Translations under genes and position numbers: made by a program | The notes under the pieces: generated by a model | What the model was told of the DNA's origin: nothing | The model's input: only the letters and a program-made list of their open reading frames with translations | Database searches by the model: none | Part shown: piece after piece, positions 4,881 through 11,235 of the stretch | Numbering within the stretch: the first letter of the stretch is position 1 | Layout of the letters: the number at the start of each line of letters is the position of its first letter | From: an uncultured Pelagibacteraceae bacterium | Lineage (GTDB): Bacteria; Pseudomonadota; Alphaproteobacteria; Pelagibacterales; Pelagibacteraceae | Length of the DNA stretch: 64,000 bases | Direction of reading: 5' to 3' | NCBI GenBank assembly: GCA_902615045.1 | Contig: CACMNP010000001.1 | Coordinates: 53,705-117,704 of the forward strand

Positions 4881-5042
4881 CAAATATTTATATTTATATT
4901 GTAAAATTTATGCTAACCTTAGACGATATAAATTGAAAATGAGAACTTTTTTCTATCTGATTCGGACTAGTTTTAGTCTATTTTTGTTCTTTTTGAGTAA
5001 CAAAATATAGTAGGCTTAAAAAAGATCATACTAAAGGTTGAT

Positions 5043-7523
5043 ATGTCAAAAAATAAGATTACCGCAGTTCTTGGACCTACAAATACCGGTAAAACTTTTT
5101 TAGCTATAGAAACTATGCTTTCATTCGATTCGGGAATGATAGGGTTTCCTCTTAGACTTTTAGCAAGAGAAGTGTATGACAAGATTATACAAAAGGTAGA
5201 TGTGTCTCAAGTTGCTCTTATTACTGGGGAAGAGAAAATTATACCAATAAATGCAAAGTATTTTTTGTGCACTGTCGAGTCAATGCCTGTAGATAAAGTT
5301 TTAGATTTTGTGGGAATAGATGAAATTCAAATGTGTTCAGATCATGAGAGAGGTCATATTTTTACTGATAGATTATTAAATCTCAGAGGCGAGAAATTAA
5401 CAATGCTAATGGGTTCCAATACTATAAAAAGTATTATTCAAAAACTTGATGATGATATTGAGTTTATAAATAAACAAAGATTGTCAAAACTCTCATTTAG
5501 TGGACACAAAAAAATTTCAAGAATTGAGAGAAAAAGTGCTGTTATCGCTTTTTCTACAGAGGAGGTTTATGCAATTGCTGAACTCATAAGAAGACAGAAA
5601 GGTGGTGCAGCAATAGTTATGGGATCTCTCAGCCCTAAAACTAGAAATGCTCAAGTGAGTTTATATCAATCTGGCGATGTTGATTATCTTGTTGCTACTG
5701 ATGCTATTGGAATGGGAATAAATATGGATCTAGACAATGTTTATTTTTCAAACATAAAAAAATTTGATGGAAAAAAAATTAGAAGATTAAAAATCTCAGA
5801 AATTGGGCAAATTTCAGGGAGAGCTGGTCGATATTTAAATGATGGAAGTTTTGGCATTACTGGGGATTGTGATGAAATTAATCCAGAAGAAATAGAGTTT
5901 TTAGAAAATCATAATTTTCCAGAAATACAAAACATATTCTGGAGAAATTCTAATCTAGATTTTAAAAATAAAGAAACCCTTTTAAAATCTTTAGATGATA
6001 AACCCAATAAAGATTGGTTGAGAAGGGTAGGAGAATGTGAAGATGAAAAAGTTTTAAAATATTTTTTAAAAGAAAATAACAACAGTATAGAAAATAATTC
6101 AAACATTTTGAAAATTCTCTGGGAATGTTGTCAAATACCTGATTTTGTCAAAAAAACTTACGGTCACCATTTGGAAGTTGTAGATAAAGTATTCAATTTT
6201 TTGACAGGTGAAGAAAGCAAAATACCTAATTATTATATGAAAAAACAACTTTCTATGCTTGATAAGCTAGATGGAAATGTAGACTCAATTTCAAATAGAA
6301 TATCGAATGTAAGAACTTGGTCATACGTTGCAAACAAATCTAATTGGGTTGAAAATCAAGATTATTGGGTCGAACGAACTAAAAACTTAGAGGATAAATT
6401 ATCGGATAGACTTCATGATGAATTAACCAAAACTTTTATAGATAAAAGAGCTAGCGTCTTAGCCAAAGGATTAAAACAAGATATTGAGCTAAAAACTGAA
6501 ATTATTGAGGAGGAAAAGGTATTGATTAATGATCAATATATTGGAATTTTAAAAGGTCTAAAACTTCAATTAGATTTAAAAGTGGATGCTCTAGATGCAG
6601 ATATTAAATCATTAAAAAAAGCTGCAAGGCAAAATGTAGGCCCAGAAATAATCAATAGAATACAACAAATAATGGATACTGGACTTATAGAATTGAAAGA
6701 TGACTTTAAGATATATTGGAGAAATGATCCAATAGCAAAACTGACAGCTGGATCCGATTATCTTAATCCAAAAATTGATTTGATCATAGATGAAATGATT
6801 GAGAATAATGAAAGAAATAATTTAAACGACTACCTAAATAAATGGATAATAAAAAAAATTGAAACTGAACTTAATAGTTTAATTGAGTTGAAAAACATTA
6901 AAGAAGATAACCCAGAACTTAGAGCTTTAGCATACAGACTTTATGAAAATAATGGTGTTATAAAAAGATCAAATATCTCTGAATATCTAAAAAAAATAAA
7001 TCAAGATGATAGGAAAAAATTAAGAAAACTAGGTGTTAAGTTTGGAAGATATCATGTCTTTTTATTTAAGTTATTCAAACCAAGTTCGGTTTCTTTAAGA
7101 ATATTATTATGGAAAAGTTATAATAACGAGTTTTTGAATTTATCGCCTCCAACATTCGGACTAAATTTTTTAAATAATATGAAAACTGCAAATAGAGACT
7201 TTATGTTACTTTGTGGTTTTGAAAAATTTGACGATATTTATGTTAGAATTGATATTCTCGAGAGATTATTCTTATTAATATTTAATTCAAAAAAAGACGA
7301 AAAAGAAGAAGTAAAGGTTATGCCTGAAATGTTAAACTTACTTGGTTGTTCAAAAGAAAATTTTAAAAAGCTTTTAAAAAAGATGGATTATAAAATTTTT
7401 GAGAAAGAAAAAGAATTTTTTATAAAATATGTTCCAACAAAAAAGAAAATTTTTAAAAAATATGACAAAAAGGACTATTCTAATAATCCATTCGGTGTAT
7501 TAAACCAATTAAACCTAAAATAA
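5043..7523 (+). CDS. SUV3-like ATP-dependent RNA helicase
   Basis: An 826-residue superfamily 2 helicase of the SUV3 type, the bacterial relatives of the mitochondrial degradosome helicase. The Walker A loop is GPTNTGKT (11-18), the Walker B/DEAD-box position reads DEIQ (93-96) as in SUV3, and the second RecA domain has VATDAIGMGINMDLD and the arginine-finger motif QISGRAGR. The long C-terminal half is predicted mostly helical with charged repeats and ends in a SUV3-like C-terminal region and a basic tail. It would unwind structured RNA, possibly with PNPase, which is encoded at 35904-37976; that partnership is inferred. It heads a plus-strand operon with overlapping start and stop codons (TAATG) into the TerB-like gene. 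Confidence 0.9.
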   Translation: MSKNKITAVLGPTNTGKTFLAIETMLSFDSGMIGFPLRLLAREVYDKIIQKVDVSQVALITGEEKIIPINAKYFLCTVESMPVDKVLDFVGIDEIQMCSDHERGHIFTDRLLNLRGEKLTMLMGSNTIKSIIQKLDDDIEFINKQRLSKLSFSGHKKISRIERKSAVIAFSTEEVYAIAELIRRQKGGAAIVMGSLSPKTRNAQVSLYQSGDVDYLVATDAIGMGINMDLDNVYFSNIKKFDGKKIRRLKISEIGQISGRAGRYLNDGSFGITGDCDEINPEEIEFLENHNFPEIQNIFWRNSNLDFKNKETLLKSLDDKPNKDWLRRVGECEDEKVLKYFLKENNNSIENNSNILKILWECCQIPDFVKKTYGHHLEVVDKVFNFLTGEESKIPNYYMKKQLSMLDKLDGNVDSISNRISNVRTWSYVANKSNWVENQDYWVERTKNLEDKLSDRLHDELTKTFIDKRASVLAKGLKQDIELKTEIIEEEKVLINDQYIGILKGLKLQLDLKVDALDADIKSLKKAARQNVGPEIINRIQQIMDTGLIELKDDFKIYWRNDPIAKLTAGSDYLNPKIDLIIDEMIENNERNNLNDYLNKWIIKKIETELNSLIELKNIKEDNPELRALAYRLYENNGVIKRSNISEYLKKINQDDRKKLRKLGVKFGRYHVFLFKLFKPSSVSLRILLWKSYNNEFLNLSPPTFGLNFLNNMKTANRDFMLLCGFEKFDDIYVRIDILERLFLLIFNSKKDEKEEVKVMPEMLNLLGCSKENFKKLLKKMDYKIFEKEKEFFIKYVPTKKKIFKKYDKKDYSNNPFGVLNQLNLK

Positions 7524-7948: not shown

Positions 7949-8271
7949 CATATTTGGTCAATGATAAATGCATAAAATGTAAACACACAACTTGCGTCGA
8001 TGTTTGTCCTGTTGATTGTTTTTATGAGGGCAAAAATATGCTTGTAATTAAACCTGATGAGTGTATAGATTGTGGCGTTTGTGAACCTGAGTGTCCTATT
8101 GATGCTATAGTTTCAGATACAGAACCTGGCAACGAAAAATGGTTAGAGTTAAACAAAAAATATTCGGAAATATGGCCAAATATATCGGAAGCAAAAAAAC
8201 CTATGCCAGACCACGAGAAGTTTAAAAATGAAGAAAATAAGTTTGATAAATACTTTGAAGAAAACGTTTAA
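7945..8271 (+). CDS. fdxA: 7Fe ferredoxin, FdxA type
   Basis: A 108-residue ferredoxin very similar in layout to Azotobacter ferredoxin I. The N-terminus [21 protein letters not shown] binds the [3Fe-4S] cluster and part of the second, and [12 protein letters not shown] supplies the [4Fe-4S] ligands. The C-terminal cap with [15 protein letters not shown] is also family-typical. It would act as a low-potential one-electron carrier in the cytosol. FdxA genes lie next to carD in many alphaproteobacteria, as here; the carD start overlaps its 3-prime end by 44 bases. Confidence 0.95.
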
Positions 8272-9100
8272 ATCTAAAAACTCTGCTAATAAAAAAAAAA
8301 CTATTAAACAAAAGAAAATAAAATCTATTAGTAAAATTAAAAAAGCTAAAGTAGCAGTTAAAGTTAAAAAAGCAAAAACTGTAGCTAAAACAAAAAAATC
8401 GAAGATACAAAAAAAAATAGTTAAATCTGTTACTGGGAAAATTGAGAAAAAAGATACCTCTGAGGCAAGCTCAAGTCTCTTACGTATCCCTAAAAGTAAT
8501 GAACAAAAACCAGAAATTAAAAAAGTTAAAAAACAAGAGACTGAAAAAAAAGAGTATAAAATAAAAGATTATGTTGTGTATCCCAAACATGGCGTTGGTC
8601 AAATCACTGAATTTAAAAAAATGAATATTGGGGGAATTGATATAGAAGCTTATATCTTAAAATTTGAGAAAGATAAGGCTAATGGAATGGTTCCAGTAAA
8701 TAAGCAAACACACCTAAGACCACTAGCTACAGTAAATCAAGTTAACAAATGTATCAGTATTTTAAAAAGTAAACCAAAAATTAAAAGAAGCATGTGGAGT
8801 AGAAGAGCACAAGAGTATGAAGCAAAAATCTCATCTGGTAAAATTTATGAGCTTGCTGAAGTAGTTAGAGATCTTAACAAGGGAGATGATCTTATGGTTG
8901 ATCAATCATATAGTGAAAGACAACTTTTCGAAAAAGCTTATGATAGAATACTTACAGAATTTCAAATAATCTTAAATTTAAGCTTAGAAGACACGCAAAA
9001 AAAACTTGATAAAGCATTAAAAAGAAATCTTGAAAAACAAGCTCAAAAGGTTGAAAATAAACCTCCTGAAGAAGAAATTACTGAGGAAATAGCCAAATAA
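8228..9100 (+). CDS. carD: CarD/CdnL-family transcription regulator with Lys-rich N-terminal extension
   Basis: The C-terminal part from about residue 112 is a complete CarD protein: an RNA-polymerase-interacting domain starting [17 protein letters not shown], then the helical DNA-binding part with [16 protein letters not shown] and [17 protein letters not shown]. CarD/CdnL binds the RNAP beta subunit and stabilises open complexes at rRNA and other promoters. Before it are about 95 residues rich in Lys with KKAK-like repeats, similar to histone-H1-like tails; typical alphaproteobacterial CdnL proteins lack this. No ATG lies between the extension and the CarD domain until inside the domain, so the extension is probably real. 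The ATG at 8228 overlaps fdxA by 44 bases; TTG codons at 8243 and 8255 are alternatives. Confidence 0.9.
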
Positions 9101-9138
9101 AAAAAAACGCTTCTCACGCAAGCGCCATGAGAAGCGTT
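9101..9138 (-). terminator. Strong intrinsic terminator after the 27-residue basic protein gene
   Basis: AACGCTTCTCA (9106-9116) pairs with TGAGAAGCGTT (9128-9138), an 11-pair stem with an 11-nt loop. On the minus strand it is followed by a run of T (complement of the A run 9101-9107), which makes it a strong rho-independent terminator for the small gene at 9161-9244. On the plus strand it sits just behind the carD stop, but only ATTTAATAA follows, so there it would be weaker. Confidence 0.88.
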
Positions 9139-9160: not shown

Positions 9161-9244
9161 CTATTTTCTTCTTTTCTTTTTAGCTTTTTTCTTAGCTTTT
9201 TTCTTAGTTTTCTTTTTAGCAGCTTTTTTTCTTCTTTTAGCCAT
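9161..9244 (-). CDS. 27-residue Lys/Arg-rich mini-protein
   Basis: Not in the ORF track because of its length. From the ATG complementary to 9242-9244 the frame reads MAKRRKKAAKKK and continues with only Lys, Ala, Arg and one Thr, ending KKKRRK and a TAG stop. About two thirds of residues are Lys and six are Arg, so it is an extremely basic peptide, probably binding nucleic acid. A clear AAGGGAG ribosome site lies 7 bases before the ATG, a TTGACA promoter about 75 bases before it, and an 11-bp-stem terminator 22 bases after the stop. These make a compact gene of its own rather than chance. It resembles the Lys-rich tail of the neighbouring CarD. A non-coding RNA remains possible, but the good Shine-Dalgarno argues for translation. 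Confidence 0.8.
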   Translation of the reverse strand: MAKRRKKAAKKKTKKKAKKKAKKKRRK

Positions 9245-9268
9245 CTTTAGCTCCCTTTTTTTTAATTA

Positions 9269-9285
9269 CGAATCTTTTTGATTCG
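9269..9285 (-). promoter_or_regulatory. Leader hairpin in front of the 27-residue gene
   Basis: CGAATC and GATTCG form a six-pair stem with an AAAAA loop on the minus-strand transcript, flanked by imperfect AATTA/TAATT arms. It falls between the predicted start of transcription (about 9291) and the Shine-Dalgarno at about 9252-9258. It may stabilise the mRNA 5-prime end or adjust ribosome access. It has no T-tract and is not a terminator. Confidence 0.5.
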
Positions 9286-9297
9286 TTTAATTACCTT

Positions 9298-9326
9298 TTT
9301 GTAATTTTTTTGAGTAGTTATGTCAA
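9298..9326 (-). promoter_or_regulatory. Sigma-70 type promoter for the 27-residue gene
   Basis: On the minus strand a perfect TTGACA (complement of 9321-9326) is followed after 17 bases by TACAAA (complement of 9298-9303), 4 of 6 matches to TATAAT. The start of transcription would be near 9291, giving an mRNA of about 190 nt that ends at the 9101-9138 terminator. Confidence 0.6.
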
Positions 9327-9430: not shown

Positions 9431-11140
9431 TTAATTATAAAGATTTTCAAAATTGTTTTTATATTTATTTATAATTTTATATCTTTTTAACTTTAATGTT
9501 GGTGTTAACATTCCATTTTCAATTGAAAATTTTTCTTTTATTAAAAAAAACTTTTTTATATTTTCTATTTTTGAAAGATTATTATTTAAATTATTTAATG
9601 AATTACTAATTTCTTCATTTGTAATATTAATAAATTCATCATTTAAAACTAATAATGCAACTAAATAAGGTTTATTATCTCCATATACAACAGCTTGATC
9701 TATAAATTCTAAATTTATTAATTCATTTTCAATTTTTAGTGGAGAAATATTATCTCCTCCAGGAGTAATGAGAATATCTTTTTTCCTATCAGTAATTTTT
9801 AAAAAATTATTTTCAAATACCCCGATGTCACCTGTGTGAAGCCAACCATCTATTAAGACTTTATCGGTCTCTTCTTTATTATTCCAATAACCAAGCATTA
9901 CATTTTCACCTTTTACTAAAATTTCACCGTCCTCAGCTATTTTAACCAAATTTCCCTTAAACGGTGGACCAACAGTATCTATTCTAATATCATGTATTGG
10001 ATTACAACTCACCACTGGGGAGGTTTCTGTCAAGCCATAGCCTTGTAAAGTTGGCAGACCAATGGCATTTAGGAAATATCCAACTTCTTTATCTAATGCA
10101 CCTCCACCAGAGACAAATGTTTTAAGAGAACCACCAAATTGTGATTTTATTTTTTTTCTAACTAATTTCTCTAACATTCTATCTTGTATTTTTTCAAAAA
10201 AAGTTAAATTTTCTTTTTTTATTTTTTTTAGACCTAATTCTAACATTTTAAAAATTAATTTTTTTTTCAATCCTGTAGCTTTTTTAAAACTTGCATTAAT
10301 TTTTTGATAAAGATTTTGATAAAATCTTGGTACGGCCGTCATTACTTCTGGAGAACAATCACTCATATTCTTAACTAGTTTATCAATGCTTTCTGCATAA
10401 AAAATTCTAGCAGCTACAGTGATTTGTACAAATTGAACAGTGTGCTCGTAAGAGTGTGAAAGCGGAAGCCAAGTAAGGAACCTGGGCTGTTCTTTAGATA
10501 ATAATGGTTTTAGGATATCTATTGCGCCTTCACAATTATTTAATATGCCTCCATGACTTAAAATCACTCCTTTAGGATTTCCTTGCGTACCTGAAGTATA
10601 AATTATACAAGACGGATCTTTTCTTGAGGCTAGAGATTTATGAATTGATAAATTTTTTTTAATGTTGTTTTGGATTAAATCTTCTAAATTAATATAGTCA
10701 ATTTCTACATTCTGTAATTTTTCGAAAGAAAATATTTTTTTTATAAAATTTTTGTCCTTAATAATATTTTTTAATTTATTAAATTGTTCAATGTTTGAAA
10801 CAAAAATTATACTTGGAGTACAGTCATTAAGAATATAATCATAGTCATTTTCTGCATAAGTAGTGTAAGCTGGAACAGTTATTCCATCTGATAACATAAT
10901 AGACAAGTCTGCAATAAACCATTCAGGTCTATTTTCAGAAATTAATAGGCATCTGTCACCTTTTGATATTACTTTTCTTAATTCATTAGAAACTAAATTA
11001 ATAAAATCATAAGTTTCTTGCCAAGAGTAATTTTTTCTTTTTTCACCTAAAGTTGATAATAAAATTTTATTTTTATCAATTTGTTTATTAAATTGATGAA
11101 AAAATAATTCAGTTAAATTATTAATTTGTTTTAAGTTCAT
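9431..11140 (-). CDS. Long-chain fatty-acid-CoA ligase (AMP-forming)
   Basis: An ANL-superfamily acyl-CoA synthetase of about 569 residues (COG1022/FadD15-like group), activating fatty acids with ATP and CoA at the membrane. The adenylation loop reads IIYTSGTQGNPKGVILSHGG, the A5 motif GYGLTETSPV, the hinge GDIGVFENNFLKITDRKKD, followed by ITPGGDNISPLKIEN. The catalytic C-terminal Lys is probably in LKLKRYKI. The track starts at 11158, but that start and the first codons lie inside tRNA-Leu; the ATG at 11140 (MNLKQINNLTELF) is the first one outside it. It begins only 8 bases after the tRNA CCA end, with no visible Shine-Dalgarno. The Lys-rich C-terminus probably reflects AT bias. Confidence 0.88.
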   Translation of the reverse strand: MNLKQINNLTELFFHQFNKQIDKNKILLSTLGEKRKNYSWQETYDFINLVSNELRKVISKGDRCLLISENRPEWFIADLSIMLSDGITVPAYTTYAENDYDYILNDCTPSIIFVSNIEQFNKLKNIIKDKNFIKKIFSFEKLQNVEIDYINLEDLIQNNIKKNLSIHKSLASRKDPSCIIYTSGTQGNPKGVILSHGGILNNCEGAIDILKPLLSKEQPRFLTWLPLSHSYEHTVQFVQITVAARIFYAESIDKLVKNMSDCSPEVMTAVPRFYQNLYQKINASFKKATGLKKKLIFKMLELGLKKIKKENLTFFEKIQDRMLEKLVRKKIKSQFGGSLKTFVSGGGALDKEVGYFLNAIGLPTLQGYGLTETSPVVSCNPIHDIRIDTVGPPFKGNLVKIAEDGEILVKGENVMLGYWNNKEETDKVLIDGWLHTGDIGVFENNFLKITDRKKDILITPGGDNISPLKIENELINLEFIDQAVVYGDNKPYLVALLVLNDEFINITNEEISNSLNNLNNNLSKIENIKKFFLIKEKFSIENGMLTPTLKLKRYKIINKYKNNFENLYN

Positions 11141-11148
11141 ATATTTTT

Positions 11149-11235
11149 TGGTGGGCAAAGAGAGAATCGAACTCTCACAGTATTGCTACTATTGGATTTT
11201 GAGTCCAACGCGTCTACCAGTTCCGCCATTCGCCC
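11149..11235 (-). tRNA. tRNA-Leu (anticodon CAA)
   Basis: The minus strand gives a complete class II tRNA of 87 nt with encoded CCA. The acceptor stem pairs GGGCGAA with TTTGCCC (one G-U), the anticodon stem TTGGA/TCCAA holds loop CTCAAAA with anticodon CAA for UUG codons, a long variable arm (TAGTAGCAATACT region) marks a Leu tRNA, and the T arm GAGAGTTCGATTCTC is canonical. The discriminator base is A, as expected for Leu. Confidence 0.95.

Follow-up and report, generated by a model that had tools for sequence, protein, structure and literature searches.

A conserved gene for a Lys/Arg-rich mini-protein beside carD in Pelagibacterales, with an invariant CcrM/GcrA-type site at its predicted transcription start

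Results and Discussion

The minus strand of the 64-kb window analysed here (the whole stretch of 64,000 nucleotides from an uncultured Pelagibacteraceae bacterium) carries a frame of 27 codons, which, as judged by sequence comparison, is a real mini-protein gene conserved order-wide in Pelagibacterales. An earlier note on this DNA had listed the frame, the AAGGGAG ahead of it, the hexamers TTGACA and TACAAA, a leader hairpin and a terminator, and each of these elements was found at the position given there. What is added to that description is an invariant CcrM/GcrA-type site at the predicted transcription start and the range of product length, from 21 to 99 aa. As the best explanation, which we regard as fairly probable, the product would be a disordered nucleic-acid-binding polycation similar to histone H1 tails and encoded in a conserved unit, the promoter of which is probably tuned by CcrM/GcrA. 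The features are as follows.

8228..9100, plus strand: gene of a CarD/CdnL-family RNA polymerase-binding regulator (Pfam CarD_C, CarD_TRCF_RID), convergent neighbour and syntenic anchor
9106..9138, minus strand: predicted intrinsic terminator of the mini-gene, stem AACGCTTCTCA/TGAGAAGCGTT, T-tract 9107-9099, beginning 22 bases past the stop
9161..9244, minus strand: mini-protein ORF (ATG 9244-9242, TAG 9163-9161), 27 codons and stop, product MAKRRKKAAKKKTKKKAKKKAKKKRRK
9251..9257, minus strand: Shine-Dalgarno sequence AAGGGAG (AGGGAGCTAAAGATG is almost invariant within the genus)
9268..9286, minus strand: leader stem-loop ACGAATC-AAAAA-GATTCGT, 7 bp, near the predicted RNA 5' end
9270-9274, minus strand: second GANTC (GATTC), a sequence match in the 3' arm of the leader stem
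9279..9285, minus strand: CGAATCA (reverse complement TGATTCG), CcrM GANTC site with the extended GcrA motif, invariant by leader comparison
9298..9303, minus strand: weak -10 TACAAA (4/6), 17-base spacer to the -35
9321..9326, minus strand: -35 TTGACA
9431..11158, minus strand: AMP-binding gene (acyl-CoA synthetase type, Pfam PF00501), upstream neighbour on the same strand
11149-11235, minus strand: tRNA-Leu(CAA), the single tRNA gene in the window

Mini-gene and its distribution

The predicted peptide MAKRRKKAAKKKTKKKAKKKAKKKRRK contains 16 Lys, 4 Arg, 5 Ala and 1 Thr with no acidic residues, which gives a net charge of about +20. Its ORF is the sole one in the window that has at least 20 aa and at least 65% of Lys plus Arg, and none of this kind appeared in simulated DNA (Markov models of orders 1, 2 and 4, with 20 sequences of 64 kb per order). 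The terminator hairpin, if read on the plus strand, sits directly 3' of carD and is also kept by relatives; two terminator-like sites were registered in the 700-bp region against a shuffle mean of 0.1. CarD of the window itself starts with a Lys-rich low-complexity extension of about 105 residues preceding the CarD domain (8228-8545, plus strand), which is H1-tail-like, and open frames of CarD differ in length among Pelagibacterales.

Direct search with the 27-aa peptide gave matches in 24 of 101 genomes of the same genus, a low yield conditioned by the shortness and low complexity of the query. The distribution was therefore re-estimated by anchoring on the adjacent CarD gene and inspecting the region beyond it. 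At all 96 CarD-anchored loci of Pelagibacterales, representing ten genera and two families, an orthologous Lys/Arg/Ala-rich ORF was found convergent with carD. Codon-level conservation, proposed in the earlier note as a check, was confirmed: the frame is kept in relatives. A frameshift was seen at only one of the 96 loci (L040); it falls in a homopolymeric stretch of A and may be due to faulty assembly. A sequence scan matched at least 120 stretches, with the K/R gene in 117 of 120 of those, and among the 80 matches listed all except one belonged to SAR11 (Pelagibacteraceae/Pelagibacterales). In 40 other alphaproteobacterial genomes no comparable gene was detected at the position beyond carD. 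Scanning of Alphaproteobacteria with the leader pattern produced matches resembling a real element only in Pelagibacterales, while the others look like scattered chance. The same type of scan in IMG/VR returned 120 stretches with loose matches and the K/R gene in none of them, and phage records contained no match to the peptide. Over the genomes compared, the mini-gene therefore belongs to the core of Pelagibacterales, in its position next to carD.

Selection on the reading frame

In one family the orthologs have 21–50 aa. Those of the second family have 40–99 aa, begin with MEELKVIFAKA and contain KAAPKKK repeats; all these changes in length are in frame. Residues are almost exclusively K, R, A, T and P, and orthologs of up to 50 aa consist of 57% K, 19% R and 18% A. 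Between nearest relatives of the same length, 50 of 81 single-base codon differences (62%) proved to be synonymous, while mutation alone would give 23% (p ~6e-14, a value that is only indicative because the compared pairs share ancestry). Lys<->Arg exchanges account for 25 of the 31 replacement differences. AAG makes up 28% of the Lys codons of the orthologs, while its share in the long ORFs of the window is 13%. Their longest A-run has a mean length of 7.1 instead of the expected 9.9. Slippery runs of A thus seem to be avoided, a sign in favour of the frame being translated. With AAG twice as frequent as in genes of the genome and A-runs broken up, selection of the mini-gene as a protein can be assumed. 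In our reading, the length of the chain and the order of its K, A and R residues are loosely constrained and the charge strongly.

Frame conservation, in-frame length variation, the synonymous bias and the conserved promoter, Shine-Dalgarno sequence and terminator together bear out the earlier description of a self-contained gene and strongly support the suggestion that its product was missed by annotation. Products of 21–30 residues are at or below the usual length limits of gene callers, and trypsin would cut such a Lys/Arg-rich chain into fragments of few residues; because of both, standard annotation and proteomics would overlook it.

Promoter and leader

The element TTGAC is present in all 107 leaders that are long enough to show it. 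The best -10 match does not exceed 4/6 in 106 of these 107, while shuffles of the same bases give 5/6 or better in 19%. As to the high expression supposed in the earlier note, the -10 of the promoter is thus weak throughout. Since in a consensus scan the promoter hexamers alone did not rise above chance, it is conservation on which the promoter call rests. Of 110 leaders, 109 contain CGAATC (a contig end cuts the remaining one) and 108 contain CGAATCA, these counts not being independent as the leaders are related by descent. The distance from the start of TTGAC to the start of CGAATC is 38–42 nt, and both elements are invariant in 15/15 divergent leaders with a mean pairwise identity of 61%.

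The 3' arm of the leader repeat is more variable. It reads GATTCGT in the genus of the window and GATTTGT, with a G-U pair, in other genera of the family; in further first-family genera it is TATGTGAT or TTTAAGTGA, whose partners are the bases that follow CGA, and in the second family TGATTC or GTGATTC. The second GANTC is missing in several genera. Retention of the stem through different pairings supports an RNA hairpin near the 5' end of the transcript. In genera represented by loci L089-L095, CGA falls outside the main stem and is still invariant, so sequence, not pairing alone, appears to be selected. A regulon sharing the TTGAC-N-CGAATC geometry was considered and ruled out, as the mini-gene is the only match in most genomes. 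Similarly, the leader palindrome was confined to the mini-gene in seven of eight genomes, that of the window included, and the eighth has one extra match elsewhere; being found almost solely here, it is not a regulon element.

Relation of the leader site to CcrM and GcrA

The genome of the window encodes GcrA (E 4.5e-33) and a CcrM-type N6-methyltransferase (E 5.5e-69) adjoining RNase HII. Among ten genomes GcrA was found in nine and the CcrM-type methylase in all ten, in line with the CcrM homolog reported for SAR11 (PMC3973325). In the cultured Pelagibacter NP1, 99.86% of GANTC sites are fully methylated; the same study reports that these sites are enriched between genes and that some regulatory regions hold unmethylated ones (PMC9516812). 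The window contains 89 GANTC versus approximately 180 expected from first-order composition, which is about 2-fold depletion. The heptamer CGAATCA/TGATTCG occurs in these 64 kb twice, in the leader of the mini-gene and at position 4958 of the plus strand. The latter copy, located 85 bp upstream of a helicase-like ORF at 5043, is another candidate CcrM/GcrA-type site.

For activation by GcrA in Caulobacter an extended motif has been proposed, TGATTCG or more broadly YGAKTCK, and in Brevundimonas no such extended motif was found (PMC7987155). The mini-gene thus shares with GcrA/CcrM promoters of Caulobacter a GANTC in this extended context near the promoter and differs in its placement. In Caulobacter, GANTC between the -35 and -10 elements marks one clear activation class (PMC4287350), while the leader site is not in this interval and maps to about +6 of the predicted start if TTGACA is the -35. 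Given this dissimilarity, methylation of the site might repress transcription, activate it or be irrelevant.

The ccrM-type gene of SAR11 (L388-L397) has one to three GANTC within 110 bp upstream, in most genomes examined as a pair just after TTGAC, and this arrangement at the methylase gene makes methylation-controlled promoters plausible in the clade. A structured-RNA survey placed in the gap between rnhB and the methylase gene an RNA motif whose first stem is invariant (Meyer 2009, PMC2704228), and this stem may instead reflect GANTC sites; the mini-gene locus is not described in the passages of the survey that were consulted.

There is a real possibility, though short of an even chance, that CGAATC is conserved solely as part of a 5' stem-loop of the mRNA, which would serve stability or autoregulation by the peptide, and has nothing to do with DNA methylation. 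Nearly every lineage has the hairpin at the predicted 5' end, the change to GATTTG keeps a G-U pair and breaks the DNA palindrome, the loop of 3–6 nt argues against a DNA palindrome bound by a dimer, and confinement of the palindrome to the mini-gene in seven genomes of eight fits as well. However, pairing would not account for the invariant CGA outside the main stem in L089-L095, and the invariant heptamer coincides with the published GcrA motif in genomes that encode both CcrM and GcrA. As a concrete and conserved target, the site lends itself to testing of methylation-dependent control; the SAR11 literature found describes only genome-wide GANTC methylation patterns.

Possible function of the product

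According to the preferred explanation, transcription of a one-gene unit of about 190 nt would start few bases before the invariant CGAATCA, from a promoter of the sigma70 type whose -35 is ideal and whose -10 is persistently poor. Its 5' stem-loop, overlapping or edging CGAATCA, probably stabilises or regulates the mRNA, while the methylation state of CGAATCA, probably via GcrA, likely tunes expression in step with replication. The product would be a free-standing disordered polycation of the histone H1-tail type, the Lys and Arg side chains of which may neutralise and bridge phosphates of nucleic acid, most likely DNA, and in this way help to compact the nucleoid. That the product binds nucleic acid and prefers DNA, that methylation controls the gene, how strongly it is expressed and when in the cell cycle are all inferred from the features described. 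The resemblance to H1 tails and nucleic acid binding, already suggested in the earlier note, are plausible in view of the composition and of the longer KAAPKKK orthologs. Against this explanation, CGAATC could be kept as an initially transcribed RNA sequence, and such a polycation could equally bind rRNA or mRNA or serve mainly as a counter-ion.

Only tentatively can one suppose that synthesis of a histone-tail-like polycation is timed to replication by the CcrM state of the invariant GANTC. If true, bacteria would here have an equivalent of histone production coupled to S phase, and this in free-living cells that rank with the most abundant and have some of the most reduced genomes. SAR11 bacteria are among the most abundant cell types of the ocean and have few regulators. 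Condensation of the nucleoid by the mini-protein, if it takes place, would bear on DNA packaging in their very small cells.

The peptide had no match at E≤1 in Pfam, NCBIfam and PHROGs, where low complexity weakens such searches. With bacterial histone H1-like proteins it shares a Lys/Ala(/Pro)-rich low-complexity tail and strong positive charge. The C-terminal tails of Pseudomonas AlgP and PhaF are likewise disordered, H1-like, Lys/Ala/Pro-rich and built of tandem repeats, and they are reported to bind DNA (PMC9239181). These proteins exceed 300 aa and carry the tail behind an N-terminal domain predicted to be helical, whereas in SAR11 the tail makes up nearly the whole protein. Chlamydial Hc1 and Hc2 are also Lys-rich and vary in size with the number of repeats (165–237 aa for Hc2, PMC2848022), but they are much longer, belong to a different phylum and developmental context, and the SAR11 protein has no Pfam match.

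Tiny and very basic ribosomal proteins, such as eL41, bTHX and mycobacterial bL37, are easily missed by annotation and have fixed length and specific residues. It seems unlikely that the mini-protein is an RNA- or ribosome-associated protein of the eL41 or bTHX sort rather than a nucleoid one, although it resembles them in size, in its MAK start and in being so basic. The only PDB match of a longer, 85-aa ortholog was ribosomal L29, with an insignificant E of 0.52, and the 27-mer had none. A ribosomal protein whose contacts are fixed would not usually spread over 21–99 aa with mainly composition conserved, and the K/A/P repeats of the second family resemble H1 tails.

Association with polyphosphate granules, as in the case of AlgP, whose H1-like K/A/P tail accompanies these granules (PMC9239181), is very improbable: of 12 Pelagibacterales genomes only 3 gave a match to PPK1 (PF02503), which is absent from 8 of 11 near-complete ones, a patchiness that makes a general polyphosphate role unlikely given the peptide gene at every locus examined, and the N-terminal domain of AlgP is lacking. 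A conserved regulatory or structural RNA with an incidental ORF, for which the stem-loop kept and re-formed across genera could speak, is hardly credible, since the synonymous bias, K<->R replacements, in-frame length changes, Shine-Dalgarno–ATG conservation and A-run avoidance are marks of reading-frame selection and the Rfam scan gave no match at the gathering threshold except a tRNA.

Leaders of the second family (L101-L114) are longer, and a segment conserved in them, ACCTCTAACTAAACCC...GGGGGGAG, is able to form pairs across the Shine-Dalgarno sequence; CTCC...GGAG occurs in leaders of some first-family genera. Such potential pairing suggests translational control.
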